A stretch of 49,528 nt of DNA from Candidatus Poribacteria bacterium (lineage in GTDB: Bacteria > Poribacteria > WGA-4E > WGA-3G), in contig JAPPBX010000011.1 of assembly GCA_026702755.1 (NCBI GenBank), forward strand, positions 1 to 49,528, given 5' to 3'. This document shows, piece by piece, positions 30,050 through 49,528 of the stretch. The first letter of the stretch is position 1, and each line of letters opens with the position of its first letter. The notes under the pieces were generated by a model. It made no database searches. It worked only from the letters and a program-made list of their open reading frames with translations, and was not told the DNA's origin. The translations under genes were made by a program, and so were the position numbers.

Positions 30050-30070
30050 GATGAAGTGCGTAAGTTCTAT

Positions 30071-30371: not shown

Positions 30372-30400
30372 CCCAACAGTTCCTTCCACAATTTTCAGGT

Positions 30401-31242: not shown

Positions 31243-31333
31243 GAACGCTCCAATGGGTCGGGTCCAAAACGGTTCCGACCGTAAGTTCCTCTAAGACAAC
31301 CCAATTCGACAAATGCCCAAATAGCACCAATCC

Positions 31334-32257
31334 CTAAATTTTATCCAACGCCATGGTAATGAACACCAACGGCAAATAAAGCAACGAAGCGTATAAGAGA
31401 TAGCGTGCCGCCTTCACCGAGCGCGCACGAGCCAAATAGATACCGACTGCCAAAAACCCTGCACCTGCCAGCAGTGCTGTAAAGAAATAGATACTACCGG
31501 CAATGTTATACAGTGCAGGCAACAAGCCAACCCCAAGGAGTGCGACGCAATTAATCACAATTTGACGACATGTACTCGCACCGTCTGGATGAATAACCGG
31601 TAACAGACGGAAACCCGCTTTCGCGTAATCTTCGCGATAGATATAGGCTATTGCGAGTGAGTGAGGTATCTGCCACAAAAAGAGTATCGTAAATAACACC
31701 CACGCTTCACCTGTCAGCGAACCTCTTGCCGCAACCCATCCAACGACAGGTGGAAGCGCCCCCGGCACCGCACCGATGAGGGTACACAACGAAGTCTTCC
31801 GCTTAAGCGGCGTATAGAGAAACAGATAACTGACGACTATCAGCGAAATAACAAACCCGCTTAGCACATTGACCATAAACGTCAGATACAACATTCCGCC
31901 CCCTGTAAGCACAGCACCAACGAGGAGTGCCTCCAACGGATTCATTCTGCCATCAGGCAAGGGTCTTTCCTGCGTCCGTTTCATCTGTGCGTCTACATCG
32001 CGTTCCAAGTATTGGTTGAGACCTAATACACCCGCTGCTGTCAACCCCGCGCCGATAAGTGTATGCAGGCATCGGAGCCAATCCACGGTCTGGGCACCGA
32101 GATAAAAACCCGCCGCAGTTGTAATGAGTATCATCACAACCAATCGCGGTTTGACAAGTTCGACATAATCAGCAGCGCGATGCACAAAAACCGTCTGCTT
32201 CGACGGTGGGTTTACCGCGTCTGTGTTGTCTGGTAAGGTTGCAGTTGTTGAACGCAT
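31334..32257 (-). CDS. ctaB: Protoheme IX farnesyltransferase (heme O synthase)
   Basis: A 307-residue polytopic prenyltransferase that converts heme B to heme O with farnesyl diphosphate. The first Asp-rich motif is NQYLERDVDAQMKRTQERPL and the second conserved stretch YTPLKRKTSLCTLIGAVPGA; about eight or nine helices are visible. With CtaA upstream it supplies heme A for the aa3 oxidase. No clear Shine-Dalgarno precedes the ATG (TGTAAAAA only). Confidence 0.95.
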   Translation of the reverse strand: MRSTTATLPDNTDAVNPPSKQTVFVHRAADYVELVKPRLVVMILITTAAGFYLGAQTVDWLRCLHTLIGAGLTAAGVLGLNQYLERDVDAQMKRTQERPLPDGRMNPLEALLVGAVLTGGGMLYLTFMVNVLSGFVISLIVVSYLFLYTPLKRKTSLCTLIGAVPGALPPVVGWVAARGSLTGEAWVLFTILFLWQIPHSLAIAYIYREDYAKAGFRLLPVIHPDGASTCRQIVINCVALLGVGLLPALYNIAGSIYFFTALLAGAGFLAVGIYLARARSVKAARYLLYASLLYLPLVFITMALDKI

Positions 32258-32382
32258 TTTTTACACTATTAAATCTGGTGACCGTTCCATTGGTTCGTAG
32301 TAGGGTAATTTATTGCCCACTGTATGCACCTTCAGAACGTGCGATGAATCGCACTACTACAAACGTCCTCAGGGTGCCTGTC

Positions 32383-33468: not shown

Positions 33469-33478
33469 CCTTCCATCT
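33397..33478. repeat. Octad foldback element forming the start of ctaA
   Basis: TGGAAGGT, TGGAAGAT, TGGAAGAT in 8-bp phase (33398-33421) face CTTCCATCCTTCCAATCTTC and a second CTTCCATCCTTCCATC run. The ctaA start codon and first 24 codons lie inside, reading as MEEKIGRMEEKK. Confidence 0.8.
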
Positions 33479-33485
33479 ACCTCTG

Positions 33486-35306
33486 TTAATCGCCGCTTGT
33501 CGCGGGGGCGTGTTCAGGTTCTGCCTGCGGAATCCAATCCGATTCCTCACCAGGTACACTATATTCATAAGGACCCCGGTAAACAGTCGGGATTTGACCG
33601 AAATTGCCGTGCGGCACCGGTGTAGGTGCCTCCCACTCCAACGTATTTACATGCCAAGGGTTTTTCTCGGCGACTTTGCCGCGGTACATACTCCAGAAGA
33701 AGTTAAAGACCAGTATCAATTGTGCGAAGCCGAGGGTAAACGCACTCATCGTAATAAAGATGTTCATACCCTCAAACTGCTGCAAAAATTCATACTGCAT
33801 CGGGTTGGAGATTCGCCGCATGTGTCCGCCTACACCGAGAATATGCATCGGGAAGAAGGTGCAGTTGAAAGCGATGAACGTCAACCAAAAATGAATCTTC
33901 GAGAGTACATCGTTCATGTGGCGACCATACATCTTCGGAAACCAGAAGATGATGCCACCGAACATAGCGAACAGACTTCCACCGAACACAACATAGTGGA
34001 TGTGTGCGACAATGTAATAGGTATCGTGGATGAAGATGTCCACCGGCGTATTTGCCATATAGATACCGCTGAGTCCACCAATCACAAACATCGAAACAAA
34101 AGCAATCGCGTGAAGCATCGGCGTTGTAAATCGGATTGAACCGCGGAACATTGTCCCAAGCCAGTTAAACGTCTTGATGGCTGATGGCACCGCAATGAGC
34201 ATCGTTGTCGTCATGAATATAGAACCGAGACCGGGCTGCATGCCACTCTGGAACATGTGGTGTCCCCAGACGATCCAACCCAAAAACGCGATGGCGATCA
34301 TGGCGTAAACCATAGAACGGTATCCGAAGATCGGTTTCCGTGAAAAGACAGCCACCAATTCGGAGGCAATGCCCATCCCCGGCAAGATAAGGATATAGAC
34401 TTCAGGGTGTCCAAAGAACCAGAAGAGATGTTGCCACAAGAGCGGATCACCGCCACCTTCCGCCGTAGCGGTAAAGAAAGTTGTTCCCGCAAGCCTATCA
34501 AAGATGAGAAGCGCGAGTGCCGAAGAAAGCACAGGGAACGCAAGTAGCAAGAGAATCGCAACAATGAAAAGCGACCAAATGACTAACGGCAGTCGGAAAA
34601 ACGTCATTCCGGGCGCACGCATATTGATAATCGTGGTGATATAGTTAATAGACCCCACCAAGGAGGAAAATCCTTGAATCAGCAGACTAATTGCCCAAAG
34701 GTTTTGCCCCCAGTCAACACCTGTCCACTGCGGGTCAGAAGAGAGAGGCGCGTAGCCTGTCCATCCAGCAGCTGCGTGTCCGCCGGGGACAAAGAACCCG
34801 ACTGTCATGATAATCGCAGCGAGGACTGCAAGCCAAAAGGAGAGCATGTTCAGGATAGGAAACGCCATGTCCCGTGTACCGATCATCAACGGAATTAGGA
34901 AATTTCCGAAGGCACCCACCAAGATAGGGACCACGACGAAGAACACCATAATAGTGGCATGCATCGTGAACAGCATGTTGTAAAATGCTGGCTCGACGAC
35001 CCCACTCGGCATATTGACTTCAAGCCATTCCTCTTTTTCAGATTCATAAATCCGTTCCCACATCCTATCAGCACCGGTGACAACTTCACCTTCGTCCAGA
35101 TACTGTTGCGATGCGCCGATGATGGGTAATGGTCTTTCGGGATAGGCGAGTTGCCATCTAAAGAGGAGCGCAAGCCCGCCACCGAGGAAGAGCATAATCA
35201 GTCCGTAGATGAGGAACTGCTTACCGATCATCTTGTGGTCAAGTGAAAAGATGTATTTGCGAATAAAACTTTCTTCATGATGTGACGAATGTTCGTTATC
35301 GTGCAT
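33486..35306 (-). CDS. ctaD: Cytochrome c oxidase subunit I (A1-type heme-copper oxidase)
   Basis: A 606-residue catalytic subunit with 12 or more helices that reduces oxygen and pumps protons. Visible: low-spin heme histidine in MHATIMVFFVVVP, GNFLIPLMIGTRDMAFP with the D-channel Asn and Asp, FWFFGHPEVYILILPG with the CuB histidine, Tyr and the Glu that defines A1-type enzymes, WGHHMFQSGM with the other CuB histidines, and HDTYYIVAHIHYVVFGGS with the heme a3 and a ligands. ATG 35304-35306 has AAGGAGG nine bases upstream. It begins 20 bases after the ctaC stop. Confidence 0.97.
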   Translation of the reverse strand: MHDNEHSSHHEESFIRKYIFSLDHKMIGKQFLIYGLIMLFLGGGLALLFRWQLAYPERPLPIIGASQQYLDEGEVVTGADRMWERIYESEKEEWLEVNMPSGVVEPAFYNMLFTMHATIMVFFVVVPILVGAFGNFLIPLMIGTRDMAFPILNMLSFWLAVLAAIIMTVGFFVPGGHAAAGWTGYAPLSSDPQWTGVDWGQNLWAISLLIQGFSSLVGSINYITTIINMRAPGMTFFRLPLVIWSLFIVAILLLLAFPVLSSALALLIFDRLAGTTFFTATAEGGGDPLLWQHLFWFFGHPEVYILILPGMGIASELVAVFSRKPIFGYRSMVYAMIAIAFLGWIVWGHHMFQSGMQPGLGSIFMTTTMLIAVPSAIKTFNWLGTMFRGSIRFTTPMLHAIAFVSMFVIGGLSGIYMANTPVDIFIHDTYYIVAHIHYVVFGGSLFAMFGGIIFWFPKMYGRHMNDVLSKIHFWLTFIAFNCTFFPMHILGVGGHMRRISNPMQYEFLQQFEGMNIFITMSAFTLGFAQLILVFNFFWSMYRGKVAEKNPWHVNTLEWEAPTPVPHGNFGQIPTVYRGPYEYSVPGEESDWIPQAEPEHAPATSGD

Positions 35307-35326
35307 TGTTATAGTCCTCCTTCCGC

Positions 35327-35992
35327 CTACTGAGGCCATCTTTCTTGTACCCAGGCATCATAGTCATCTTGGGCATGCACATTGAGGAACCCGAGCATTC
35401 CGGAGTGTCCAAATCCACACAATTCGGCACACGGAATTTCATAACGACCTGCCTTTGTTGCCTCAAACCAGACATCGATAAATCGGTTGGGCAAAGCATC
35501 CTGTTTGAGCCGTAACTGTGGCACGAAGAAACTGTGGATGACATCCTCAGCGGTTAAGCGGATATGCACGACCGCGTTGATCGGCACATGCAATTCGTTT
35601 TCTAAGTCCAAGTCATCATCTGTCCCGAACTCGTTATCGGGACCGGGATACGTCATATCCCAGTTAAACTGCTTTCCACTGACCTGGACAACAACATCTG
35701 GATTCTCAGGAAATTGTGTAGGCGACTTAATATTATTCCACTGCGGGTAACTGAACATCGCGAGCACAAAGACAATCACCGTTGTAACGGCTGTCCAAAC
35801 AATTTCCAGCGTTGTGCTTCCTTCAATGTAAGCCGCTCTCTTGCCTTCCTGATGCCGATATTTAATCAAGAAAACAATGAGGGTTCCCATTACAAGGACG
35901 AACACAATAAGGGTAAGCCAATAGATAGCGTGAAAGAGGTTATCAACGCCTTGCCCAAACGTTGATACGTTCTCTGGTAGCCATTGAAGCAT
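35327..35992 (-). CDS. ctaC: Cytochrome c oxidase subunit II
   Basis: A 221-residue subunit with two transmembrane helices (about 22-43 and 63-83) and a periplasmic cupredoxin domain. All CuA ligands are present: H153, C188, E190, C192, H196 and M199 (CAELCGFGHSGM). There is no cleavable signal and no fused heme c domain, so the enzyme is aa3-type and must take electrons from a separate cytochrome c or copper protein, several of which are encoded upstream. AAGGAGG five bases before ATG. First gene of the core oxidase set. Confidence 0.96.
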   Translation of the reverse strand: MLQWLPENVSTFGQGVDNLFHAIYWLTLIVFVLVMGTLIVFLIKYRHQEGKRAAYIEGSTTLEIVWTAVTTVIVFVLAMFSYPQWNNIKSPTQFPENPDVVVQVSGKQFNWDMTYPGPDNEFGTDDDLDLENELHVPINAVVHIRLTAEDVIHSFFVPQLRLKQDALPNRFIDVWFEATKAGRYEIPCAELCGFGHSGMLGFLNVHAQDDYDAWVQERWPQ

Positions 35993-36064: not shown

Positions 36065-36835
36065 CTAATTCGTTTGTGCAGACGCTGTGAAAGTTGCCGC
36101 CACGTAAGTCAATACACAAAATAGACCGGTAATCAGCATCGAGAGTGTCCACGGGGGTCCCTCGCCAACTGCTGTAGCTGTGTTAAGATAGAGACTCTGC
36201 CGAAAAGCAGCGAGTCCGTATGTTAACGGATTCAGTTTCATTGTCCATGCTAACCAACCAGGTACGCCTATACTCGGAAAAAACGCACCGGAGAGAAGCC
36301 AAATCGGAATCAACAGGAGATTCATAATCGCATGAAACCCCTGGGTTGAATCCATCCGCCACGCGATGAGTAGTCCGAGATTTGTCAAGCCAAACGCCAA
36401 AAGTGCCATCACACCGAGCGTGAGAAAGAGCGATGCTACACTGAATCGAATGCCGGTCATCGGTGCGAGGAGTAACAACAACACGCCTTGTAAAAGTGCT
36501 AACGTGGTTCCACCTAACGCTTGCGCGAGCACAAGCTGCCACCTCGGTACAGGCGCGACGAGTACGCCTTGCAAGAAACCTTCACGCCGGTCGTTCACCA
36601 CAGAAATTGTAGCGAAAATAGACGTAAAAAGCAAGACTAAAACGACGATACCGGGATAAAAATACGCAATATAACTAAGTCCATCTACCTCACCAGAAGG
36701 TTGAAAAGAGGCACTCAAACCACTTCCGATGAGAAGCCAAAATACTAAAGGTTGTGCGATAGCACTGAAAAGCCGACTTCGCTGACGATAAAACCTGATG
36801 ATTTCGCGCCACCAAATCGTTGCAATCGGTCTCAT
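36065..36835 (-). CDS. ABC-2 type transporter permease (DrrB-like)
   Basis: A 256-residue permease with six hydrophobic helices and the ABC-2 signature region (DRREGFLQGVLVAPVPRWQL; LLIPIWLLSGAFFP; NPLTYGLAAFRQ). It pairs with the ATPase upstream to form an exporter. A heptad foldback element fills the 96-base gap between the two genes and abuts the ATG, leaving no Shine-Dalgarno sequence. The position inside a respiratory cluster suggests export connected with oxidase maturation (heme, copper or lipid), but this is inference. Confidence 0.85.
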   Translation of the reverse strand: MRPIATIWWREIIRFYRQRSRLFSAIAQPLVFWLLIGSGLSASFQPSGEVDGLSYIAYFYPGIVVLVLLFTSIFATISVVNDRREGFLQGVLVAPVPRWQLVLAQALGGTTLALLQGVLLLLLAPMTGIRFSVASLFLTLGVMALLAFGLTNLGLLIAWRMDSTQGFHAIMNLLLIPIWLLSGAFFPSIGVPGWLAWTMKLNPLTYGLAAFRQSLYLNTATAVGEGPPWTLSMLITGLFCVLTYVAATFTASAQTN

Positions 36836-36836
36836 T

Positions 36837-36926
36837 AGCAGTCAGCAATCAGCAGTCAGCAGTCAGCAAAGAGGCGTTCAGTGTTGAAGAGCCTTCTTTC
36901 AACTGATGGCTGACAGCCGATAGCCA
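36837..36926. repeat. Heptad foldback element (clearest copy)
   Basis: AGCAGTC, AGCAATC, AGCAGTC, AGCAGTC, AGCAAAG follow one another exactly every 7 bases (36837-36871). A complementary arm AACTGAT, GGCTGAC, AGCCGAT ends at 36926. The centre has AAGAG/CTTCTTT-type pairing. It sits exactly between the ABC ATPase stop and the permease start. Confidence 0.88.
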
Positions 36927-36931
36927 TTCCT

Positions 36932-37906
36932 CTATACGAATGGGTTTCCTGTCAACTTTACGAATACGTCCTCTAACGTCGGTTTCCCGAACCGCACCGA
37001 TTGAATCTCATTTGGAAACGCCGCAACCACATCCCGGGCGAACTGATGCCCACGTTTACATTCAATGCGTAACCAATTATCCATTAAGACTGTCGAAACG
37101 CCGAACCGATCAGCAATAGCGGCATCAAGTGTCCCGCTGTTTGTGCTCTCTATGAGGACAACATCGCCACCGACCTGTGCCTTGAGTTCATTCGGTGTTC
37201 CGAGAGCGACCAACTTGCCTGTATCCAGAATACCTACCCTGTCGCATGCTTCGGCATCATCCAGTAAATGCGTTGTGAGTAGAACAAGAATATTTCCCGT
37301 CCGTGCGAGCACCTCAAGAGTGTCATTGAGTTGCCGACGCACTACTACATCCAATCCGCTCGTCGGCTCATCAAGGAGCAGAATGCGAGGCGAATGCAGC
37401 ACGGCTTTCGCAATTTCAACGCGTCTTTGCAAACCGCCAGATAGAATTTCCACACGTTCGGTTGCTCTGTCCGCGAGCCCAAAATGCTCAAGCAGTTCCG
37501 AAATTCGGGAGCGCAGCGTTTTACCAGCGAGACCATAAAGATGTCCCTGGTGTCGTAAATTCTCAACGACCGTGAGTTTCGCATCCAACCCTGGCTGTTG
37601 AAAAACAACACCCAAGAGGTGCCGAATCGCTTTTACCTCGGTCGCTAAATCGTGTCCGAGGATACGAACGCTGCCAGATGTTACCGGCATCAGCGTAGAC
37701 AGGATACGAAAAAGTGTTGTTTTGCCACTCCCATTCGGTCCGAGGAGTCCAAAAATCTCACCGCATGACACATCAAAACTGACATTGTCGAGTGCGCGCC
37801 GTGTTCGATAGGCGTGCGAAAGATTCTCTATCTTAATTCGACTGTCAGTTGTCAGTTGTCGGAAACCTTCAGTAGTTACGGAATTCAAAATCTCTGTGTC
37901 TACCAC
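36932..37906 (-). CDS. ABC transporter ATPase (DrrA/CcmA-like)
   Basis: A 324-residue ATPase: Walker A GPNGSGKTT, Q-loop VFQQPG, signature LSGGLQRR, Walker B LLLDEPTSGLD, switch LTTHLL, and a C-terminal extension ending in PTLEDVFVKLTG as in DrrA-type exporters. The start codon is GTG with GAGGG seven bases upstream. The first 22 residues, including RQLTTDSR, are encoded by a heptad foldback element; the family core starts at about residue 24 (IKIENLSHAY) and no later start codon is available before Walker A. It lies between the cupredoxin-like gene and its permease. Confidence 0.9.
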   Translation of the reverse strand: MVDTEILNSVTTEGFRQLTTDSRIKIENLSHAYRTRRALDNVSFDVSCGEIFGLLGPNGSGKTTLFRILSTLMPVTSGSVRILGHDLATEVKAIRHLLGVVFQQPGLDAKLTVVENLRHQGHLYGLAGKTLRSRISELLEHFGLADRATERVEILSGGLQRRVEIAKAVLHSPRILLLDEPTSGLDVVVRRQLNDTLEVLARTGNILVLLTTHLLDDAEACDRVGILDTGKLVALGTPNELKAQVGGDVVLIESTNSGTLDAAIADRFGVSTVLMDNWLRIECKRGHQFARDVVAAFPNEIQSVRFGKPTLEDVFVKLTGNPFV

Positions 37907-37945
37907 AAGGAAACCCTCTTGCTGACCGCTGACCGCTGATGGCTA
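37840..37945. repeat. Heptad foldback element at the ABC ATPase start
   Basis: GACTGTC, AGTTGTC, AGTTGTC, GGAAACC (from 37840) face TGCTGAC, CGCTGAC, CGCTGAT, GGCTAC (to 37945). It contains the GTG start of the ATPase gene and runs into the stop codon of the cupredoxin-like gene. Confidence 0.82.
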
Positions 37946-38719
37946 CTTCAGTTTCAATGTGAAATCTTGCGTGACAGTGCCGCCAGCTGCTACAGTAACA
38001 GCGACAGGTGCCTCGTTGTTAGTACCACATGCTTCATGCCAATAGCCGAGTTTGTAGTCGCCTGCTGGGACATCTTCAAGCGTGAACTCACCTTTTTCGT
38101 TCGTCACGGCAAAATAGGGATGCGGTACGTAGGCAATCCAAGCCGACATCCATCCGTGAATGTCGCATTTGACTGAGACGGGACCCTCCGCCTTCTTCAC
38201 CGCTTTGAGGGGCATTCTTCGGCGGTTTTTCGACTGCGGTTTGTTAACTGGATTGCTACTGAAGATATGGACATTGTGCATAATCTTATCCGAATTCAGC
38301 ATCGTCAACCGAGCACCGACTGGAACGATCTGCACATGTGGTGTGAATTTGCAACCATCCTGATCAATTTCCGGTTTGGCTGCTTTGTCAAAATCTTTAC
38401 CTTCCGAAATGTCAATTAGATAGACAATCGTATTTTTTAGAACGTTGCCTTCACCGACGACCAGTGATTCATCAAATTTTTCGTCAGCACCACAAACCTT
38501 CTCGTCTTTGGTGATTTCCAGTGCTTTCTTTTCAGGCACGTCCCCTTCAAACTTGACTACGCCGCTAATTGTGCCGCCATTGTTAACAGCCTTAGCTTTA
38601 TACGCTTTAGGAAACACCAACATTTCCATGTCTCCTGAACCGGAGTCAGCCGCGAAGGCACCACCGGCATAGCAACACGCGAGAAATACCGTGAAACTTG
38701 TCAACAAATAGGTTTTCAT
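37943..38719 (-). CDS. Periplasmic cupredoxin-like protein (methylamine-utilisation/MauL style)
   Basis: A 258-residue exported protein: signal peptide to about A24, then a beta-sandwich with type I copper-like ligands: H148 in MHNVH, C185, H188 and M191 in CDIHGWM, plus H128 upstream. The C-terminal 55 residues (GEFTLEDVPAGDYKLGYWHE) form a carboxypeptidase regulatory-like strand module. It is a paralogue of the protein at 45159-45908. Position suggests a soluble or tethered electron carrier or copper carrier for the oxidases. AAAGGAG precedes ATG. Stop codon lies in a repeat element. Confidence 0.82.
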   Translation of the reverse strand: MKTYLLTSFTVFLACCYAGGAFAADSGSGDMEMLVFPKAYKAKAVNNGGTISGVVKFEGDVPEKKALEITKDEKVCGADEKFDESLVVGEGNVLKNTIVYLIDISEGKDFDKAAKPEIDQDGCKFTPHVQIVPVGARLTMLNSDKIMHNVHIFSSNPVNKPQSKNRRRMPLKAVKKAEGPVSVKCDIHGWMSAWIAYVPHPYFAVTNEKGEFTLEDVPAGDYKLGYWHEACGTNNEAPVAVTVAAGGTVTQDFTLKLK

Positions 38720-38903: not shown

Positions 38904-40622
38904 TTATACTTCTTCCGAATTTCTCCGCTGTACGACTGCCCTTAAACCGAAAAGCAAGCCGAGAGAGAGAATTGCAATCAAAGGCGGATAAACGAACCGT
39001 CTTGAAGATGGAACAGGTTCAAGGACAAAAGTATACCAGCTTGTCATCACCCGTTTTGTGTCAACATCACCGTTCGCGCCATCCCATGCAGAGAAAGCGA
39101 TTGGGACAAAGACATCGGGTTCAAGCTGCAAATCCTTCTTATCATCGGTCTTTAAGGCACGTTTCACCCACAATTTGTATTGTCCATCTGTGTAGGCACT
39201 CTGTACTTGGAGTTCGCCTTGTGCTTCTTGAACTTCGGCATTGTTGATTCCCTTAGCAGTCAACTCTGTCACCTGCTCAGGTGCGGAGGCTTTCCAATGC
39301 CACAGATAGACCGGTAACCTACCACCCCATAAGAAATAGGGTTTCGGTGCGGTCGGACCTTGCGGCACCTTCACCGGAAATTGAATCGCCAATGCGTCCT
39401 CAAGGGTTTTCCCGGTTTCTTCATCCGTTTCGTCGCCAACCGTGTGTGTGCGGTCATCCCACGTAAAGAGGAACGCGACCTCTGTGTCATTGTAAAACGA
39501 TTTGACATTTACGGAATCAATTGTCGGGTTAAACTGGCGAGGCTCAATGACGACCTGTCCGACAAGGGGGAAATACCGAGATTGAAGCGTTTCCCATGCA
39601 GCATCATCCATTGGCGGTAACGCACCTTGAACGTATTGTGCTCGGAGCACGTTATTCCCAATTGCCGATTCAGGACGTTTCTCAGGCGAAAGAGATTTCA
39701 CGTAGTTCGCTAAATGCCAACTCTTTTCATAAACAACCTTCATCGCATCATCATACATCTGTTTTTCTGCAGCTGTAAGTTCTGTACCTTCTGCAAGATT
39801 GAGCGCCATGTCAACAGCAGCATCGTATTTCTCGTAAAGCTGCGCGGATTCCTCTTCCTCAGCCTCCGTCATTTCATCTTTGTTGTCTAATTCGATCATG
39901 CGACTGGATTCCTCAGATGTCAGTCCGAAGCCTGGAAAGGTATCGCCTTCAAAAGCTGGCATAGGTGAACCGGCAATTCCGCCGATGAAGCGCTTGAAGA
40001 TGTCTTCGACATCAGCGCCGCCTCGGTAATTCCAACCCTGTGCCAGATTTGCCGGCCACGTCTGGAATCCCCACTCATCGGTCAGGTCCGGTGCAGAGGT
40101 GCCATCCCCTCTTCCGATGTTTCCATGGCATTCCACACAACCGAGTTCGATGTAAAGTTCTTTTCCGGTTTCCACGCTCTGCTCAGAGTAAGAAATTTTC
40201 CCAGACAGGTTAATCTGCTTTGGCGGTGCTTCAGCTTCCTTAAAGCCATCGTAGAAAGTTTTGATGTAGGCGACTACTTCCCAACGATCATTCGCACTTA
40301 AGGCAGTTTCCCATCCCGGCATAGATGAACCGGGCATCCCTTCGGTGATAATGTCAAATAGGTCTTGATCTGTTGGGAGTTCTCCAGCTTCCGTAGACCG
40401 GATTTTATACAAACCGCGTGTGAAATCCCTCGGTTTCGGAAGAAGGTTCTCAGCCGCGGAACCGTCGCCTCTACCTTCAGTACCGTGGCAGTGCGCGCAG
40501 CTATTCTCGTAAACCGCTTTTCCTTTTTCGGACGCTTCGGGAGCGTTTTGCGCGCGTCCCAACGTAAGAACACATAGTATTCCTAAAACCAGCATCAGGA
40601 GGACTACATTCTTTTTTCTCAT
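38904..40622 (-). CDS. Diheme cytochrome c fused to ethylbenzene-dehydrogenase gamma-like domain
   Basis: A 572-residue exported, membrane-anchored protein. Signal or anchor helix at 5-22; heme c motif C42-A-H-C-H46 and a second C162-V-E-C-H166; an acidic helical linker; then a region (about 345-540) resembling the heme b-binding gamma subunit of type II DMSO-reductase-family enzymes (EbdC, NxrC), with VVIEPRQFNPTIDSVNVKSF, EVAFLFTWDD and YLWHWKA; last, one helix (IAILSLGLLFGLRAV). No molybdenum enzyme gene is seen nearby. ATG lies one base after the preceding stop, with GGGGAGG nine bases upstream. Confidence 0.82.
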   Translation of the reverse strand: MRKKNVVLLMLVLGILCVLTLGRAQNAPEASEKGKAVYENSCAHCHGTEGRGDGSAAENLLPKPRDFTRGLYKIRSTEAGELPTDQDLFDIITEGMPGSSMPGWETALSANDRWEVVAYIKTFYDGFKEAEAPPKQINLSGKISYSEQSVETGKELYIELGCVECHGNIGRGDGTSAPDLTDEWGFQTWPANLAQGWNYRGGADVEDIFKRFIGGIAGSPMPAFEGDTFPGFGLTSEESSRMIELDNKDEMTEAEEEESAQLYEKYDAAVDMALNLAEGTELTAAEKQMYDDAMKVVYEKSWHLANYVKSLSPEKRPESAIGNNVLRAQYVQGALPPMDDAAWETLQSRYFPLVGQVVIEPRQFNPTIDSVNVKSFYNDTEVAFLFTWDDRTHTVGDETDEETGKTLEDALAIQFPVKVPQGPTAPKPYFLWGGRLPVYLWHWKASAPEQVTELTAKGINNAEVQEAQGELQVQSAYTDGQYKLWVKRALKTDDKKDLQLEPDVFVPIAFSAWDGANGDVDTKRVMTSWYTFVLEPVPSSRRFVYPPLIAILSLGLLFGLRAVVQRRNSEEV

Positions 40623-40623
40623 C

Positions 40624-41400
40624 TTAGTGTGCCTCCCCAAAGGTACGGAATTGATAACCGGTGTAGTCAGACAGAAAAAGGATGACATCCCAAATTTCGT
40701 CTTTTGTTAAGGAGTCTTCCCAGATAGGCATTGCCGAATCCCACGGCGTTCCCGATGCAGGTAATCCCGGGCCGCCTTTTGCTATTCGCCAAAAGAAGAA
40801 AGATTCTTGGAAGTTCGGAATAATTCCCGGGTCTTGGAAATTAGCAGGGAGCGGCTGGAGATATGGTGCGAAATGTCCTTGCCCATCAAGATGATCTCCA
40901 TGGCACGGAAAGCAATTCTGATGATAGACACGTCTACCGTTTTCAACATGCGCTTTGAACGCTTCCGGATCATCTTTTTCGTAATGCCGGAAGGGGTTCA
41001 CGACATCTTGCATCGTGCCAATGACCTCATCTTTATAAGTCAATTCAAGCGGCGGCGAAGGGTGCGCGTCACGCGGGCTTCCAGGGGGGTTTGCCCGCTG
41101 GGCAATAATCGAATAGGTATAACCGAGCAGAAAAAGCGGAATCAACACAGCGATAACGCGGCGGCGGACACGGCGATTGTTATCAACGAGCGTTTCACGG
41201 ATGGGGCGCAGAAACTCGCGAAACAGTGAATCCTCAACAGAGATATGCACCAAGACAGCGAGTAGAATCAACCCCATATACATCGCAATCACGCTTGCCG
41301 GTATCGGCACTGAGATGATATTCCCAATAATAAATCGCAGGAAGATCCAAGAACCGACCAGAATTATGAGACATATTGTGAAGAGCGACAATCTTTTCAT
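40624..41400 (-). CDS. Membrane-anchored monoheme cytochrome c
   Basis: A 258-residue protein with three helices (about 6-28, 36-53, 83-100), a Pro-rich linker and a C-terminal cytochrome c domain with C163-F-P-C-H167. A probable Met ligand lies in AMPIWEDSLT. It likely passes electrons at the membrane surface between the CydA-like subunit or bc-type complex and downstream oxidases. No Shine-Dalgarno is obvious before ATG. It is followed almost without gap by the diheme fusion gene. Confidence 0.85.
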   Translation of the reverse strand: MKRLSLFTICLIILVGSWIFLRFIIGNIISVPIPASVIAMYMGLILLAVLVHISVEDSLFREFLRPIRETLVDNNRRVRRRVIAVLIPLFLLGYTYSIIAQRANPPGSPRDAHPSPPLELTYKDEVIGTMQDVVNPFRHYEKDDPEAFKAHVENGRRVYHQNCFPCHGDHLDGQGHFAPYLQPLPANFQDPGIIPNFQESFFFWRIAKGGPGLPASGTPWDSAMPIWEDSLTKDEIWDVILFLSDYTGYQFRTFGEAH

Positions 41401-41591: not shown

Positions 41592-43100
41592 TTATTCCGC
41601 GGGAGTCTCACCTGTCTCTGCTGGCACTGCTTCCGCTGTCGCGCCAGTGAGCGTGCTTAAGAAAGAGAGCAAATTGCTCATATCTAATACCGATAACAGC
41701 AGTGGGAAGTTTTCCGGCATCGGTGATGTAACCAGCAACTTCTTGCCGGAGGCACGGGTAAAGGTAACTTCCTCAAGATCAAATGTATCAAATGCCTCCT
41801 CACTTCCATCGACGATTAAGACGATTTCGTCGTCGTCCATTGTGCCTGAAACATACTCGCCAACAATTTCATCACCATCAAAAGTGACAACCGTCATCAT
41901 ACTTTTGACATCCGTTTTGGAGAACGTCTTATCTTCACCGTTAACTTTAAGTGTCACAGTCTCCGCGGTTTCTGAAACGATTGTCCCACTGACCGGGGCA
42001 TCGGCATCTGTAGGTGTTAGTGTCAACGTAAAATAGCCGTTCGCCTGCAGATCTGTGAGTTCTTCAATCGGTTCCTCATCAAGATCACTCAGTAAGATAG
42101 TGTGTTCCTCTTCCACGCCATCCGCAGTTTTGGTTCGGACGACTATTTTTTCTTCATCTTGCGAGACGAGTGTCCCTTGGTAAGTTACTCCGTTGGCACG
42201 GACGGTCACGGCACCGTAACCGCTCACAATTTGTGCACTCGGCATCAGGATTGACTCTTCAAGATACCGCATGTCGTTAAAGGCAGCAATTTCAGAAAGG
42301 TCCGGTGCGGTGACCACTTCAAAGTCCGCACTCGTTTCCCCAGCTGCTGGACTTTCTACACCCTGTACGACATGGCAAGCGTTACACGCAGCACTCACAA
42401 AAACCTTCTTACCGAGTTCCGGATCGCCAGTGAGCAAGGGTGGAAGTGCTTCAGCGACTACCGCTGCATCTTTCCGATCTATAGGTTCCTCAAACGGAGT
42501 CGGATCAATTTCGCCGCCTTGACTCTCAAGGTAAGCGATAACCGCTTGAATCTCCACGTGAGAAAGCGCAATCGGGGCTTTCCATATCTCTGGCATAATC
42601 TTACCGTAGCCAGGGATGAGGTGGTTCGCCGGGAAATACAGAGATTCAATTAAATACGTTCTCGCATCCATACCGGGGATGCGGCTTGCGGCGTTAACAC
42701 CTATGTCTGTCAAGTCAGGACACCTTCCTGGCGGAGCAGAGGTATCCACTGTATGACACGCGCTACATTGCCCCTTGCCGTTAAACACCAAAGCACCTTG
42801 CTCAGCGACTGCCTCTGGGTCACTCCAATCAAGCTCAGTTAGACTCACTGCTGTCGAACTTTCCGGGACAAGACTCGCAACAAAGGCGTAAAACCATATC
42901 ACGGCGAGTGAGAACGTCAACAACTTCATGACGTTTGACCATAAAACGATGTTTATGACGACCGAGATGAGAAACCAGACTGACCACGGTAGTAAGTTTT
43001 CCGAGGCAATCGGAAACGCAGATGCCCCAGCAATATAGGCGATGAAACTCACCACCATTAAAATTAGACTCGCAATTTTTATGAGCGTATTTCTTGACAT
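41592..43100 (-). CDS. Diheme cytochrome c with inserted beta modules
   Basis: A 502-residue membrane protein: three N-terminal helices (8-28, 38-54, 57-77), first cytochrome c domain with C112-S-A-C-H116, and a second starting at C239-N-A-C-H243. The second domain is interrupted: between PSAQIVSGYG (about 288-296) and the Met-ligand segment SPMPENFPLLLS (M461) lie about 160 residues containing three similar beta units (YQGTLVSQDEEKIVV; VSGTIVSETAETVTL; IVGEYVSGTMDDDEIVL). The C-terminus is acidic. ATG 43098-43100 has AGAGG five bases upstream. It follows the CydA-like gene and may be its electron-donor subunit. Confidence 0.82.
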   Translation of the reverse strand: MSRNTLIKIASLILMVVSFIAYIAGASAFPIASENLLPWSVWFLISVVINIVLWSNVMKLLTFSLAVIWFYAFVASLVPESSTAVSLTELDWSDPEAVAEQGALVFNGKGQCSACHTVDTSAPPGRCPDLTDIGVNAASRIPGMDARTYLIESLYFPANHLIPGYGKIMPEIWKAPIALSHVEIQAVIAYLESQGGEIDPTPFEEPIDRKDAAVVAEALPPLLTGDPELGKKVFVSAACNACHVVQGVESPAAGETSADFEVVTAPDLSEIAAFNDMRYLEESILMPSAQIVSGYGAVTVRANGVTYQGTLVSQDEEKIVVRTKTADGVEEEHTILLSDLDEEPIEELTDLQANGYFTLTLTPTDADAPVSGTIVSETAETVTLKVNGEDKTFSKTDVKSMMTVVTFDGDEIVGEYVSGTMDDDEIVLIVDGSEEAFDTFDLEEVTFTRASGKKLLVTSPMPENFPLLLSVLDMSNLLSFLSTLTGATAEAVPAETGETPAE

Positions 43101-43168
43101 TTTTGCCTCTTTCAAAAATCCCAATTCTTCAAGACAGAATCGCTTTGGTCCCGATTCATTCTTTCACG

Positions 43169-45064
43169 CTAATCATCACTCTCCACAGCAATCTCTCCCT
43201 CTACAGGAGCAACTGCCGCTTGCTTCTTCTTTTCGCCCCACAAACCGAGCCAGAAAATAAACCCAACGAGTGCGAAGAAGGCCACCATGATGATCGCTAC
43301 CATGTTCACTGCTTCGCTGAGAAGCGGCGTAAATGCATCCGGCGATGTATCTTGCATAACCCCGAAGATATGCCACGCCTCTCGAAGTCCTGAGCGCGCA
43401 TATCCCATCAATCCCATCAGGGACGTAAACGTAATTGCCACCAGAATTAACACGTATTGTGAGCGATCCGTCATCTCGCCCCATTTAATGGTACCAGACG
43501 TTGTCGCCTTGCGGTACATGAAAATATCAACGATAGTGACAACTGCCATCACCGCAAGCGCAACCAAAACTTGATATGGGGTCAGGATATTGACACGCAA
43601 ATCTGTCGGAACGGTAAATCCGACGATGCCGATAACTACGATTGAGACTGTCGCAAGGAAAAAGATCGCAGAGATGGCAACGTTGCCAACCTTTTTCCAA
43701 CTTGCCGTAGGTATCTTTCCTGAACGCCGATAAAATAGGAAACTCAAAAAAGTCGTGAGAATAATGATGTTAACAGCCGTATTTTTGGCAGTCATCAAGC
43801 CAAATAATCCGAGGTGTGGATGGTTTGCACCGCCCATCGCACTCAGCTCACTGGCACTTGAGATTTTAGAGAGCGTCCGCGGGGTCATCCAGATGGCGAC
43901 ACAGATAATAATGACCGTAATCATATACGGACGGTATCGCGCATAGACCTCCGCCCCTTCAATGCGCCCCATACCCGACCAGAGGTAGTAGTTCGCACCA
44001 ATAAATAGAACACCAATCATTACCGCCTGAATAATGAACAGCCAAGAAAAGAGACTACCCATCATGTTGATGCCCATTGTGTTATTGAACATATAGATTT
44101 CTCTACCGAGCCAATAACCCAGGAACGGCAGCGGTATCAGTCCGCAGAGTGCGATGAAGTTTCCGGTATAGCCCATCCAATCGTAGTGTGCTTTGTCCTC
44201 TTTCGTCTTTGCGACGAGGAATCGGAACGCGGCATAAGCCGCCACAATCGAACCGCCGAAGGCGATGTTTCCAACGAGACGGTGGATATTAACAGGCATC
44301 CACGTAAAATTGTTGACAGCATCCCAAAGCGTGCCCATGAACTCGCCTGTTGTCTCGTTGTGGAGTGGCACCATTGTGTGGCTTGTAACACCCTCCATAG
44401 CGGTTTCAGGTGTGAGTTCTGGATCAGCAGCCAATCTCTCTTCAATCCAAGACTTCCGCCGTCCTTCAGATAGCACGCCATATTGCGTTGCCGGACTCGT
44501 TTGGTAACTCAACCATGAATTAGAGACGAACATAATTGCCGTCCCCCACACATTTAATAAAACACCGAGGAAGAGATGCCACCCTTTATGGCGGCCTTGC
44601 ATCTTATCCCATCCGTAGGAGTAGAGGTAAAGCGTAAAGGTCTCACCGAAGAACAGAACAACGTAAAAAATCATCGTCGGTCCGAATATTCCGCTGAGCT
44701 TGGTCATGACCTTTGGATAACACCAGATGAGGATGAAGACGAGCACACCACCGAGCAGGGCTGTCGTCGAAAACGCACCCATACAGAGTTTAATGAACTC
44801 CTGCGCCATCCGGTCATATCGCATGTCCTTGGTCTTCCAGCCGATAAATTCGATGATAACAGCGAACATCGGAACACCGAGAATAAAGGATCCGAATAAC
44901 AGGTGCAGCTGCGCAGCAATCCATGCTGCATTCCGACTGCCGATCTTCGGGAAGGGGCGATATTCTGCCTCGGTTGCATCTTGTGCAAACACCGGTGCAA
45001 CTGCTAAAAAGGCATAAGCAAGCAGCACACAACCGAGTATGAGATAGACTCTCTTTTTAGACAT
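43169..45064 (-). CDS. CydA-like subunit of a cytochrome bd-superfamily complex
   Basis: A 631-residue polytopic protein with about 14 helices, after an N-terminal signal-like helix. It aligns by eye with E. coli CydA: H54 in LHLLFG (heme b595-type ligand), FFGETFTLYLYSYGWDKM with E141 at the CydA Glu107 position, SNSWLSYQ matching ANGWMQ, H261 in MPVNIHRLVG (b558-type ligand), and LGREIYM. The CydA Glu99 position is Phe, and no Q-loop is found between the sixth and seventh core helices, so quinol binding as in canonical bd oxidase is doubtful. No CydB gene is present; cytochrome c genes flank it. No Shine-Dalgarno: a heptad element abuts the start. Confidence 0.8.
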   Translation of the reverse strand: MSKKRVYLILGCVLLAYAFLAVAPVFAQDATEAEYRPFPKIGSRNAAWIAAQLHLLFGSFILGVPMFAVIIEFIGWKTKDMRYDRMAQEFIKLCMGAFSTTALLGGVLVFILIWCYPKVMTKLSGIFGPTMIFYVVLFFGETFTLYLYSYGWDKMQGRHKGWHLFLGVLLNVWGTAIMFVSNSWLSYQTSPATQYGVLSEGRRKSWIEERLAADPELTPETAMEGVTSHTMVPLHNETTGEFMGTLWDAVNNFTWMPVNIHRLVGNIAFGGSIVAAYAAFRFLVAKTKEDKAHYDWMGYTGNFIALCGLIPLPFLGYWLGREIYMFNNTMGINMMGSLFSWLFIIQAVMIGVLFIGANYYLWSGMGRIEGAEVYARYRPYMITVIIICVAIWMTPRTLSKISSASELSAMGGANHPHLGLFGLMTAKNTAVNIIILTTFLSFLFYRRSGKIPTASWKKVGNVAISAIFFLATVSIVVIGIVGFTVPTDLRVNILTPYQVLVALAVMAVVTIVDIFMYRKATTSGTIKWGEMTDRSQYVLILVAITFTSLMGLMGYARSGLREAWHIFGVMQDTSPDAFTPLLSEAVNMVAIIMVAFFALVGFIFWLGLWGEKKKQAAVAPVEGEIAVESDD

Positions 45065-45158: not shown

Positions 45159-45908
45159 TTATTTCGCGCGTTTCTTAAAGTCAGCACTCGTGAAGTTTAC
45201 GGCAATATCACCACTTGCTGGTACTTCAACCGTTTTGTTTGCTGAACCGAGTTCTTCATGCCATGCGACGACGCGTGCCCTACCCGCTGGCACATCAGCG
45301 ATCGAATAACTACCGGCATCTGCGGATTTTTCATAGTCATCTGAACTGATCCAGGCACCATCAGCGTCTTTGTAACCGGTGACCGTGAAAAAGTTGTTAG
45401 GAACAGCGACGATGTAACCGGTCATCCAATCATGAATATCGCATGTGAATTTAATCTCTTCAACCTTTTCGATTTTGTGCGGGAGAATTTTGCCAGGCTG
45501 CGGAATCTGATAGTTTATCGCGTCATTCTTTTTCGCATGAGAATGGACGTTGTGTGCAATCGGATCGCTGGAGGTAATATCAACGGTAGAACCAACAACA
45601 ACAGCGAGAACGTGCGGGTAGTAAGCGCATGCCTTTTGGTCCATAACTGGGTTTTTCTCTGGAACAGTAGGTTTTGCCCCACGGACGCGGGCGTAAATTA
45701 CAACGTTCTTGATGCCTTTGCCCTTTGAGACAACGAGTGCTTCGGACTTTGTACCTGTTACAGCGTCAACGCAATGTTGATCTTTGGTCGCAGTCAGGGC
45801 AGGACGTGCTGGCGCATCACCATCATACATTACAGTCCCGGTGATAGTGCCTGCAAACGCAACACTCGTCAACATCCCAAAGACAAGCAAAGCAACTACG
45901 ATTTTCAT
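45159..45908 (-). CDS. Periplasmic cupredoxin-like protein, second copy
   Basis: A 249-residue exported protein with signal peptide to about A19 and the same copper-type ligand set as the protein at 37943-38719: H119 (AHNVH), C156, H159 and M162 (CDIHDWM), with H99 upstream. The C-terminal part carries a carboxypeptidase-regulatory-like module (SYSIADVPAGRARVVAWHE). It has a good ribosome site (GAGGAG). Placed between a small cytochrome c and the CydA-like subunit, it is a candidate electron or copper carrier for that complex. Confidence 0.82.
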   Translation of the reverse strand: MKIVVALLVFGMLTSVAFAGTITGTVMYDGDAPARPALTATKDQHCVDAVTGTKSEALVVSKGKGIKNVVIYARVRGAKPTVPEKNPVMDQKACAYYPHVLAVVVGSTVDITSSDPIAHNVHSHAKKNDAINYQIPQPGKILPHKIEKVEEIKFTCDIHDWMTGYIVAVPNNFFTVTGYKDADGAWISSDDYEKSADAGSYSIADVPAGRARVVAWHEELGSANKTVEVPASGDIAVNFTSADFKKRAK

Positions 45909-46024: not shown

Positions 46025-46381
46025 TTACCGACGAAACGTCTCCTTAATATAGTCAAGAATCTCCCGCTGTTCCTCATCATTGAGATAGTAATAGAACGCT
46101 GGCATATCGTTTTTCCCAGCGTTGATGCTATCCAGCAATTGCTCATCGCTGTGCATCTCCCACAGGCTGTTGTCTGTTAAGTCTGCGGGATCCAATTTTT
46201 TGAAACGTCCGATCCGTCCGTTGCCTTCCCCGTTGTTCCCATGGCACCCCGCGCAGTATCGGGCATACTTGTATTCAACCTGCGACTGATATTTCGTACT
46301 CGGGTCAACCTGTCTTGCCAACCAAATTAACCCATTGAGCCACACAAGAATCATGACAACAACGACGATAAGGTGTCTCAT
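46025..46381 (-). CDS. Small membrane-anchored cytochrome c
   Basis: A 118-residue protein: N-terminal anchor helix (4-22), then a single cytochrome c domain with C43-A-G-C-H47 and a Met ligand in NDMPAFYYYL. It resembles cytochrome c partners in oxidase or bc-type clusters. It lies between the octaheme cytochrome and the cupredoxin-like gene. The ATG has no Shine-Dalgarno; a heptad foldback element ends a few bases upstream. Confidence 0.88.
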   Translation of the reverse strand: MRHLIVVVVMILVWLNGLIWLARQVDPSTKYQSQVEYKYARYCAGCHGNNGEGNGRIGRFKKLDPADLTDNSLWEMHSDEQLLDSINAGKNDMPAFYYYLNDEEQREILDYIKETFRR

Positions 46382-46388
46382 ATTTTAT

Positions 46389-46528
46389 GGTTATCGGTTC
46401 TCAGTTATCAGTCTGCCTCGCAGTGAGAGTTAAGAGGTGCTTTTGTAACAATCCATCTAAACTTGGCGTACGTCAAGCAGTGGTGAATTGTTACAGGGAG
46501 GCACCTTAACTGATTACTGACTAATACT
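46389..46528. repeat. Heptad foldback element with long core
   Basis: GGTTATC, GGTTCTC, AGTTATC (from 46389) face AACTGATTACTGACTAA (to about 46527). The core holds AAGAGGTGC/GGCACCTT and TGTAACAAT/ATTGTTACA pairings, and a GCCTCGCAGTGAGAG word shared with 30085-30098. It includes the stop codon of the octaheme cytochrome gene. Confidence 0.78.
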
Positions 46529-49528
46529 AATGAGGTAATCTCGCACAAGTCGAATCTGTTTCTCAGCATCATCGTCAGCATAGCCTTCAAGCGGTACATG
46601 TTGTCCACCAATGAGGGGCCACGCCTGAGGCATCGCTGTTCCAGGTTGGAACGACTGCGGATCCTTCATCCAATCAATAAGCCAATCAGCCTTGAGACGT
46701 TCTTTCGCCAGGGCAAGATCTGGTCGCCCAGCTTTGTCGCTGCCTTCAGGGATAACTTCACCCTGCGATGGATGGCAGGAGATACACTGAAGCGCGTCAA
46801 AAATCTGCTTACCGACTCGCAACTCAGCACGCGTCGGTGTCGGCATTTCAAGCGTCTCATAAGGGAAGGGTTCATCGTCAAGCGCAGAGAAGTACTCGAC
46901 AAACGTTGTCGCTTCGTCATCCGATAGACCAAATGTTGGCATTCGGACTTTGAGCCCGTAACGAATCTCTGACGGCTCCTTGAGGAACGCAAATAACCAG
47001 TCCGGATAAACTCTCGCACCCTCAGCTTTCAACGTCGGCGGTGCAAACTGCTTGGCAACCATCTCACCCAACCCTTCGTGTGCGATGATAACATCCTGAT
47101 AATCGCCGCCCGCGCCCTCAATTTCGTGGCACCCAGCGCAATTATACTTTTTCACCAACCGTCTGCCCGCATCAATACGGTCCAATTTCTCGGATCGGTT
47201 ATGGATATAACTGAGCGGATACTTCTCAGGTTGGAAACTCTTCAAAAGCACAGCCAATGCTTTCGCCTCTTCGTCGTTAATCTGGAAGACAGGCATACGA
47301 GAGACAATGCGTCGGGTCTGGTAACGCCGTGGATTGGTTACCTTACCAAGGGTCCATCCGGTCCAACTATGTTCAACATCTACCGTATCACCAAAGTCAA
47401 GTTCATCAGCGAGTTTCGCACCGAATTCGCCGAGATCGGCACCGACTTTTGATTCATTTTCAAATCCAGGGATTTCATGGCAACCGAAACATCCGTAGGT
47501 CCTGACGAGTGCCTCACCCTCTGCTACGTCCACTTCACCGATGGATTCACCAGACGCGTTGGGGGTTGCCTGCTGTAGACTCATCAAGTACGCGACGACA
47601 TCGTCAACTTCGTTATCATTCAATCGCAAACTCGGCATACTCGTATCTGGATCATAAGCTTTCGGATCGCGAATCCACTGGCGGAGGTAATTCGGCGTAA
47701 CCTTTTCGCCAACGCTGTCCAGTGCCGGAGCAAAATCGCTTCCTAAACCACCAACAGCATGACACGTGAGACAGCCAACAGTTTTAACAGTCTCTTCACC
47801 TGCTTCAATGGCGCGTTGAGATTCGGAATAGGTTGCACTGACCTCATCGAGATTCGCATCACTCATTTGGGCAAGGTAAGCTGCGATAGATTTCACCTCA
47901 TCAACAATGCGAATAACATAACTGTCAGGATACGGATATTCCGTGCCGTCATCCGTTTTGACGATAATACCATTCGCTGTTTTGGTGACAACACCGGTAC
48001 GTTGCCCACCGTTCTTGAGGTAAACGACTTGCGTCATGCCATCGGCAGGGAAGAAGTTTGGCATCGTCGTATTCGGCAGATACGCCTCAGGTTTCTTAAG
48101 CCAACTTTCGAGCCAAGCCGTATCTTTTATCTTGCTACCGACTTTCGCGAGCGACGGACCGACTTTGGCGAGGTCTTCAATGGCACTATAGCCTTCTACA
48201 GCATGGCATCCGTGACAGCCGAGGTCTTCAAAGAGTGCCAATCCTTTTGTGAGATTAGGGGCATAGTCCTGAGGTTCATCTGTTTCAGGATTCACACCGT
48301 AATCCAACATCACCACACCATCGTGACAGCGGCGGCAGTTAGATTCCATATATCCTTTTGTCTCTTCAGAGGTTCTGCCGGTATGCTCATCCAAACCAAG
48401 GACAGGGGTGAGCCAATACTCAGCATGCGTCAAGGCGTGGGCAGATTTCGCTGTGAGAGCCTGCCCTTGTCCACCGTGGCAAGGCGTGCACCCAAATCTA
48501 TCAACAGGGTGTTTCTCAAGAAGAACATCTCGATGCGGATGCGTCTGGAGGACTGAATGGTAGCCGGTCTCATAAGAGATCTCTACTTCGCCGAAGACAT
48601 CAACATCACTGAAAGTAAGGGTGCCGTTCTCTTCTAATGTATATTCGTCTGCTTCTGCCTCAAATCCATCAATTATAATATTCTCACTCCCTACTTTAAC
48701 ACTCGCATGCTTGAGACGATGGACAACCGGATTTTCGCCATCACCTTCTACCTCAAATATCTCTTGGGCGGATTGCTCATAGCCGCTCCTATCAACAGAG
48801 AAGTGACACGTCGCACACCTGTCTGCAGTATGGCTAAAGTCTTCAAGATAGTATTGCGTGATCGTTCGCGTTTCACGGAAGGGGTTTTCTAATAGGCTAC
48901 CGAGGAAGGTTCGCTTGATACCACCCACTGAATGGAGTTTTTCCTCAAGACGTGCAACTTCGTCATACTTTGCTTTGTCGGCTTGCAGAGATTGAAGCGA
49001 CGCTTGGGCAGCGGTAATGCCATCAGTGATTTCTGTATCTGCCGTGTTATATTTCTGGGCGATGAGGTAGGTACTGAGGGCACTTTGTGCGTCTCCATTG
49101 GCTTGATAAAATTGCGCCAAAGCTTTGTTCGCGTCTGCAAAGGCGGCTTCCGCTTTCAAAACGGCTTCGGTCAGTTCACTCTCAATCTGGGATTCAAAAT
49201 CCGCTAATTTCTTCTGCCATTTGTCAACAGTCGCATTGTGTCTACCCTTCGCTTCGTGGAGGCTATGCTGATATTTATAATTAATCGCATCCGATTCGCT
49301 CTGCCGAAACTTACGTTCCTGCAGTGCTTCGTCCAAAGCAACTTGGGCGTTCCTGACTTCTTTCGTTAACCTTCCGAGTTCCCTGGGGTCAGGTTCTTGA
49401 GGTGTCGGGAGTTCAGGCAGAACTAACCTCGCGTTCTCCAATTCCGCGTGTGTCTTTTCATATTCATATTGATAAAATTGCTGCTGGATCTGCTTCCATG
49501 GGCGGCGGGTAATCATCTCACTCCAGAA
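46514..49528 (-). CDS. Octaheme cytochrome c (5' end outside window)
   Basis: At least 1004 residues are encoded; the frame is open through the window edge, and the in-frame ATG at 49514-49516 is probably internal, since the sequence continues upstream as FWSE and a membrane anchor is expected. Charged helices and a coiled coil fill the first 200 residues, followed by eight CxxCH motifs: CATCH, CTPCH, CRRCH, CHGCH, CLTCH, CFGCH, CAGCH, CISCH. One cytochrome module carries a beta hairpin insert (VVYLKNGGQRTGVV) after its MPNFF Met-ligand segment. The last residues (ISISQ) come from a repeat element. Likely a large electron conduit for a bc-type or alternative complex III encoded further right. 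Confidence 0.88.
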   Translation of the reverse strand, partial: FWSEMITRRPWKQIQQQFYQYEYEKTHAELENARLVLPELPTPQEPDPRELGRLTKEVRNAQVALDEALQERKFRQSESDAINYKYQHSLHEAKGRHNATVDKWQKKLADFESQIESELTEAVLKAEAAFADANKALAQFYQANGDAQSALSTYLIAQKYNTADTEITDGITAAQASLQSLQADKAKYDEVARLEEKLHSVGGIKRTFLGSLLENPFRETRTITQYYLEDFSHTADRCATCHFSVDRSGYEQSAQEIFEVEGDGENPVVHRLKHASVKVGSENIIIDGFEAEADEYTLEENGTLTFSDVDVFGEVEISYETGYHSVLQTHPHRDVLLEKHPVDRFGCTPCHGGQGQALTAKSAHALTHAEYWLTPVLGLDEHTGRTSEETKGYMESNCRRCHDGVVMLDYGVNPETDEPQDYAPNLTKGLALFEDLGCHGCHAVEGYSAIEDLAKVGPSLAKVGSKIKDTAWLESWLKKPEAYLPNTTMPNFFPADGMTQVVYLKNGGQRTGVVTKTANGIIVKTDDGTEYPYPDSYVIRIVDEVKSIAAYLAQMSDANLDEVSATYSESQRAIEAGEETVKTVGCLTCHAVGGLGSDFAPALDSVGEKVTPNYLRQWIRDPKAYDPDTSMPSLRLNDNEVDDVVAYLMSLQQATPNASGESIGEVDVAEGEALVRTYGCFGCHEIPGFENESKVGADLGEFGAKLADELDFGDTVDVEHSWTGWTLGKVTNPRRYQTRRIVSRMPVFQINDEEAKALAVLLKSFQPEKYPLSYIHNRSEKLDRIDAGRRLVKKYNCAGCHEIEGAGGDYQDVIIAHEGLGEMVAKQFAPPTLKAEGARVYPDWLFAFLKEPSEIRYGLKVRMPTFGLSDDEATTFVEYFSALDDEPFPYETLEMPTPTRAELRVGKQIFDALQCISCHPSQGEVIPEGSDKAGRPDLALAKERLKADWLIDWMKDPQSFQPGTAMPQAWPLIGGQHVPLEGYADDDAEKQIRLVRDYLISISQ

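Follow-up and report, generated by a model that had tools for sequence, protein, structure and literature searches.

The window, the 49,528 nucleotides of contig C11, comes from a 5.84 Mb metagenome-assembled genome (MAG) of sponge-associated Poribacteria. It carries a gene for a cytochrome bd-like membrane subunit among genes for cytochromes c and cupredoxin-like proteins (Table 1). Five cytochrome c proteins, with 8, 1, 2, 1, and 2 CxxCH motifs, and two cupredoxin-like proteins sharing a CDIHxWM copper motif were found, matching the set of neighbors listed in an earlier reading of this DNA made from the sequence only. Relatives of the octaheme cytochrome c are mostly 1036-1065 aa long with an N-terminal transmembrane (TM) segment, and the protein resembles the multiheme subunit of anammox Rieske/b complexes (PMC12954380). 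On the downstream side of the module, the second cupredoxin gene is followed by an ABC transporter and then by an aa3-type oxidase; most Poribacteria loci likewise have the transporter pair between coxB and the second cupredoxin. CoxB (subunit II) retains the CuA motif CAELCGFGHSGM; CoxC, CoxD, CtaA, CtaB, and SCO were named by sequence rather than by family search. No alpha, beta, or gamma subunit of nitrite oxidoreductase (NXR) and no TorD-like chaperone is encoded in the window.

Table 1. Features of the window around the bd-like gene.
Feature	Position	Strand	Remarks
aa3-type cytochrome c oxidase and assembly genes: SCO, CoxD, CoxC (two), CtaB, CtaA, CoxA, CoxB	28226..35992	minus	
ABC-2 type transporter pair (ATPase and permease)	36065..37906	minus	named from sequence
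Second cupredoxin-like protein	37943..38719	minus	CDIHGWM motif
Two cytochrome c domains, EB_dh heme b domain, and C-terminal TM segment ("alternative NxrC"/EbdC-like; c/EB_dh)	38904..40688	minus	true start likely about 20 residues inside this listed ORF
Membrane-anchored monoheme cytochrome c (c258)	40624..41400	minus	in L066, L069, and L070, one ORF with the next gene
Membrane-anchored diheme cytochrome c (c510)	41592..43124	minus	directly downstream of the bd-like gene; conserved partner
bd-like (OR-N type) subunit	43169..45064	minus	631 aa, intact ORF, signal-peptide-like N-terminus
Cupredoxin-like protein	45159..45908	minus	CDIHDWM motif, upstream histidines; C-terminal CarboxypepD_reg match below the Pfam cut-off
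Small monoheme cytochrome c	46025..46381	minus	118 aa
Octaheme cytochrome c	46514..49516	minus	8 CxxCH motifs; cut by the contig end

The product of the bd-like gene is a subunit I of the cytochrome bd superfamily that has neither a CydB partner nor a Q-loop. Pfam Cyt_bd_oxida_I matched residues 44-324 of the protein (E=1.5e-17), and none of the NCBIfam models did. An AlphaFold2 model built with 35 homologues reached a pLDDT of 82 and a pTM of 0.81, and its matches in the PDB at E<=0.001 were ten chains, all of them cytochrome bd subunit I. Full-length superpositions, with an rmsd of 11-21 Å and TM-scores of 0.32-0.41 over the query, were used for fold identity only. The protein thus has the features that define the superfamily, namely, the CydA N-terminal core, the equivalents of H19 and H186, and the subunit I fold.

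Residues were compared by profile-profile alignment, with 35 bd-like homologues on one side and ten canonical CydA proteins on the other; the E. coli CydA sequence used was 100% identical to database records. The alignment was strong over residues 43-289 (probability 98.9%, E=1.5e-17). H54 corresponds to E. coli H19 (kept in 33 of 33 rows; two partial rows lack the position), H261 to H186 (35/35 rows), E141 to E107 (34 of 35 rows), H163 to H126, and N182/W184 to N148/W150. The sequence-only reading was therefore right about the CydA-type heme ligands, the Glu107 equivalent, and the NSW motif. It had also placed a Phe at the Glu99 position, and this needs correction: the site is Tyr134, a Tyr in each of the 34 rows covering it, and Phe133 is only a variable neighbor. 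Tyr134 stands seven residues before E141, the same spacing as in the genome's own CydA (EGFAFFLE). Residues conserved across phyla in the bd-like protein are H54, Y134, E141, H163, H261, H293, R561, W564, and H565.

The profile alignment stops after TM5, at E. coli residue 214, and K252 and E257 of the quinol loop, invariant in the ten canonical CydA proteins, have no counterpart in the bd-like profile. The Q-loop is thus missing, as had been proposed. A periplasmic loop at residues 190-254 was considered as a hidden Q-loop and rejected: it lies between TM4 and TM5, away from where a quinol loop sits, and most homologues have a shorter version of it. Aligned separately, the C-terminal parts pair R561-x-x-W564 with R448QPW451, in a weak match that starts at R561 (probability 30-78%, single-comparison E of 5.5e-4 to 1.9e-5, depending on the slice). 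Gap-free extension of this match would place Glu445, the b595 ligand, on Ser558. No acidic residue is conserved between positions 514 and 571 of the bd-like profile, and the invariant residues near Ser558 are R557, R561, W564, and H565. The C-terminal mapping, including that of Glu445 to Ser558, is suggestive, not firm. Both Glu99 and Glu445 are invariant in the ten quinol oxidases and belong to the oxygen-reducing site. The region of M393, the second heme b558 ligand, is not alignable by profile; the invariant M335 and H293 are candidates only.

Scanning of genomes for the bd-like protein identified 76 loci. Most were from Poribacteria (74-98% identity) and one was from Latescibacterota (59%); MAGs of SAR324, Nitrospinia, Scalindua, Nitrospirae, Desulfuromonadales, alphaproteobacteria, and others followed at 41-48%. 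The plasmid records searched held no full-length homologue. In nearly every sufficiently long locus, the genes for the diheme cytochrome c (c510), the monoheme cytochrome c (c258), and c/EB_dh come next after the bd-like gene in the same orientation, and MAGs from Poribacteria, Latescibacterota, SAR324, Nitrospinia, Scalindua, alpha- and deltaproteobacteria, and other groups share this order. In three loci from three lineages (L066, L069, and L070), c258 and c/EB_dh form one ORF with three CxxCH motifs, a fusion that supports a physical complex.

In the phylogenetic tree, a branch with support of 100 splits the ten quinol oxidases from the bd-like rows, and the Poribacteria and Latescibacterota proteins form a clade (support 99). 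In the tandem loci L061, L064, and L072, one copy falls within the Scalindua/Troglogloeales clade and the second elsewhere in the tree. A 523-aa bd-like relative in a Nitrospinia genome (L114, G087) has a very long branch, and its placement is unsure. By sequence and gene context, the window protein belongs to the published OR-N ("bd-like oxidase") family, an assignment anchored on Nitrospinia and Scalindua homologues rather than on named OR-N reference sequences. It groups with bd-like proteins of Nitrospinota, anammox bacteria, and Nitrospirota, outside the quinol oxidases, and it is encoded in an operon with cytochrome c subunits and an alternative NxrC (EB_dh plus heme c). The CydA-like core, the absence of the quinol site, and the association with cytochrome c are all shared with OR-N, a family known chiefly from nitrite oxidizers and anammox bacteria, described by Murali et al. 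2021 and likely cytochrome-c oxidizing according to PMC10839748 and PMC12342949, which relay that work. These appear to be the surveys of cytochrome c-associated subfamilies that the sequence-only reading mentioned. Its central proposal, exchange of electrons with c-type hemes instead of quinol, is the best reading of the data because the protein lies outside the quinol oxidases in the tree, lacks the quinol loop, and is encoded in a conserved cytochrome c operon. The findings it named as fatal to that proposal, a cydB gene or Q-loop in close homologues or a place within the quinol oxidases, were looked for and did not turn up.

Contig C11 ends inside the octaheme gene. In a chromosome-level relative (L005), the genes, whose families were confirmed by family search, run in the order Rieske, cytochrome b6, subunit IV, octaheme cytochrome c, small cytochrome c, cupredoxin, and module. 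Genes for subunit IV, cytochrome b6, and Rieske lie on the minus strand of contig C61 of our genome (C61:234-2598, within locus L088, G000:C61:1-12000), and their order and strand fit a continuation of C11. Since C11 breaks off within the octaheme gene and the C61 genes stand in the expected order, the two contigs are probably adjacent.

Contig C61 also carries a canonical cydA side by side with the only cydB of the genome, and no cydB was found near any bd-like locus scanned, in line with the reported absence of CydB. The separate cydAB pair indicates that the quinol bd oxidase of this genome is encoded there and not by the gene in the window. A diverged canonical quinol oxidase with its CydB encoded elsewhere could draw on the N-terminal CydA homology and on the existence of the C61 cydB, but that gene adjoins a full-length cydA of its own, the quinol loop is absent, and the tree separation has support of 100. 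This reading is already contradicted, and we give it next to no probability.

Genome content was assessed through family searches. The aa3 locus holds the only COX1 of the genome, and the module holds its only EB_dh gene. Counting full-strength matches only, the bd-like gene is present, as a single copy in each, in 67 of the 70 genomes of the close Poribacteria families f1-f3 and in G007, a genome of the same class; the raw tally of 69/85 includes weak matches to canonical CydA, and the true bd-like gene occurs in 68 genomes. A bc-type cytochrome b is encoded in every f1-f3 genome, in most of them with one copy ~6-8 kb from the bd-like gene, which rules out the module as a substitute for a missing complex III. 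Alternative complex III (ACIII), sought via its NrfD-family subunit, gave no match in families f1-f3. The curated cut-off of TIGR03479 is too strict for NXR, and scores were therefore calibrated on Scalindua, Nitrospinia, and G007, where NxrA-like proteins scored 210-281 bits. The genome under study has no NXR-like alpha subunit (best match, 63 bits), and families f1-f3 gave no match to a type II molybdenum enzyme at NXR strength. MAG incompleteness limits what an absence from a single genome means; the pattern across 70 genomes is independent of any one of them. A formate-dehydrogenase-like frame with one in-frame TGA (G000:C96:134219-135634) is repeated in many Poribacteria genomes, and the TGA is possibly a selenocysteine codon.

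The sequence-only reading suggested that the combination of copper proteins with an EbdC-like fusion might be a new arrangement. It is not: a 2013 paper (PMC3578206) reported for Nitrospina, Nitrospira, and Kuenenia a Q-loop-free bd-like protein together with two cupredoxins, mono- and diheme cytochromes c, and an alternative NxrC that combines heme c with a heme b domain, and the gene order recurs in many phyla. The NXR-associated clusters of Nitrospina gracilis, Nitrospira defluvii, and Kuenenia (PMC3578206, PMC8026999) share the bd-like protein without Q-loop, the EB_dh plus heme c NxrC, the cytochromes c, and the two cupredoxins with the Poribacteria locus, which differs in lacking NXR and in having an adjoining aa3 oxidase. 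A similar grouping of Rieske/cytochrome b, bd-like protein, several cytochromes c, and alternative NxrC is found in the complex III_1/bd-like/alt_nxrC_1 region of N. moscoviensis, a species that carries four bd-like genes but lacks a canonical heme-copper oxidase, whereas the Poribacteria genome has one bd-like gene and aa3; a III-IV supercomplex has been proposed for N. moscoviensis (PMC6606698). Anammox Rieske/cytochrome b complexes (Kuenenia Kustd1480-1485, PMC12954380) have the b6-like cytochrome b, the subunit IV-like protein, and a large multiheme cytochrome c in common with the upstream genes, and the Scalindua locus L075 keeps the same order from Rieske through c/EB_dh, bd-like module included. 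An NAD(P) oxidoreductase subunit is present in Kuenenia and in L075, where its gene lies between cytochrome b6 and subunit IV (L075:3422-5125), but absent from the Poribacteria loci L005 and L088. The bd-like protein with a periplasmic cytochrome b also recalls TO_1 of Ca. Manganitrophus and other Nitrospirota (PMC9040806), a likeness drawn at the level of the system rather than gene by gene; the TO_1 hosts are autotrophic Nitrospirota.

What is new is the NXR-free, single-copy setting kept across the close Poribacteria genomes. The bd-like proteins of nitrite oxidizers and anammox bacteria are mostly treated as companions of nitrite oxidoreductase; in these Poribacteria, the module is instead linked to an aa3 oxidase and a Rieske/cytochrome b complex. 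Its retention as a single copy without NXR suggests that the alternative NxrC is a component of the bd-like complex and not of NXR. The locus also supplies residue-level predictions concerning Y134, H565, and the absence of E445.

We propose, at a probability of about 0.58, that the bd-like module takes electrons from cytochrome c to reduce O2, the inferred substrate, as part of a respiratory assembly of the III-IV type. The OR-N-type core would sit in the membrane with the TM diheme cytochrome c, the TM monoheme cytochrome c, and the c/EB_dh heme b protein as partners. The complex of Rieske protein, cytochrome b6, and subunit IV, whose genes lie immediately upstream, would oxidize quinol, and the bd-like complex would work beside the downstream aa3 oxidase. 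The single four-protein complex is deduced from gene order and fusions, and the direction of electron flow, the identity of the hemes, O2 as acceptor, and any charge separation are put forward in the same conditional sense. The bd fold, the conservation of H54, E141, H163, and H261, the strongly supported branch, and the kept module order speak for this reading, as do the Rieske-b6-subunit IV-octaheme genes upstream, aa3 with CuA downstream, the single COX1, single EB_dh gene, and separate cydAB of the genome, and the literature on Nitrospira (PMC6606698) and OR-N (PMC10839748). Several points count against O2 reduction. Loss of the two glutamates, Glu99 to Tyr134 and, by the tentative C-terminal alignment, Glu445 to Ser558 with no conserved acid nearby, argues for a remodeled or non-oxidase site. 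The cited literature reports no enzyme activity for OR-N. With aa3 and canonical bd oxidases already present, Poribacteria do not need a third O2 reductase. In Scalindua, too, the module sits beside Rieske/b, and O2 consumption there was attributed to a cbb3 oxidase and flavodiiron proteins (PMC13253579). The terminal oxidase proposed in PMC12342949 is an OR-N1/OR-N2 pair (CydAA'), whereas this genome has one full-length bd-like copy; the pair was proposed for Nitrospirales terminal oxidases and not shown as a requirement for every member of the family.

The main rival to the O2 reductase is a relay without oxidase activity, passing electrons between the Rieske/b complex, a periplasmic cytochrome c/cupredoxin pool, and aa3, or back to quinone. 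We consider it rather unlikely, though it accounts for the changed Glu99 and Glu445 positions, for the aa3 oxidase next door, and for the Scalindua gene order beside the Rieske/b complex, and it recalls both the alternative-complex-III-like role proposed in PMC3578206 and the unknown electron transport module listed for Kuenenia (PMC7438415). Against it, the bd-core residues H54, E141, and H163 are kept across phyla, a quinol:cytochrome c reductase is already encoded upstream, and O2-respiring Nitrospira that lack canonical heme-copper oxidases express bd-like genes, the Rieske/cytochrome b complex being co-transcribed with these and with cytochromes c (PMC6606698). A narrower version, which we find doubtful, is that the module of Poribacteria and their Latescibacterota relative, set in an NXR-free Rieske/b-octaheme-aa3 assembly, no longer carries out bd-type O2 reduction; Tyr134 and His565 would replace Glu99 and Glu445, giving a different heme site in a III-IV coupling unit.

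A cytochrome c-fed NO reductase or O2 scavenger, mainly protective and not energy-conserving, seems improbable. Canonical bd oxidases do act on NO and peroxide (PMC10839748, PMC12342949), and several phyla have a gene for a universal-stress-protein fusion close to the module, but the synteny is with complexes III and IV, not with nitrogen-oxide enzymes. Less credible still is a membrane anchor or electron outlet of an NXR-like molybdenum enzyme. Such a link has been published for Nitrospina, Nitrospira, and Kuenenia (PMC3578206), and in G007, NxrA-like alpha and NxrB-like beta genes and a type II chaperone gene adjoin two c/EB_dh genes, a bd-like gene, and two cytochromes c. The module is nonetheless kept in 67 of 70 close Poribacteria genomes, and the genome under study has neither an NXR-like alpha subunit nor a second EB_dh gene.

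Three further features of the window lie outside the module, all on the minus strand. At 25925-27832, a universal stress protein domain is joined to three stretches of PCP_red (protochlorophyllide reductase 57 kD); relatives of this fusion lie near bd-like modules in L060, L061, L065, L066, L069, L072, L075, L076, L078, and G007. Four tandem paralogues at 8333-13607 resemble serine beta-lactamase-type hydrolases, and one protein at 308-2545 consists of two similar halves, both like branched-chain amino acid binding proteins.
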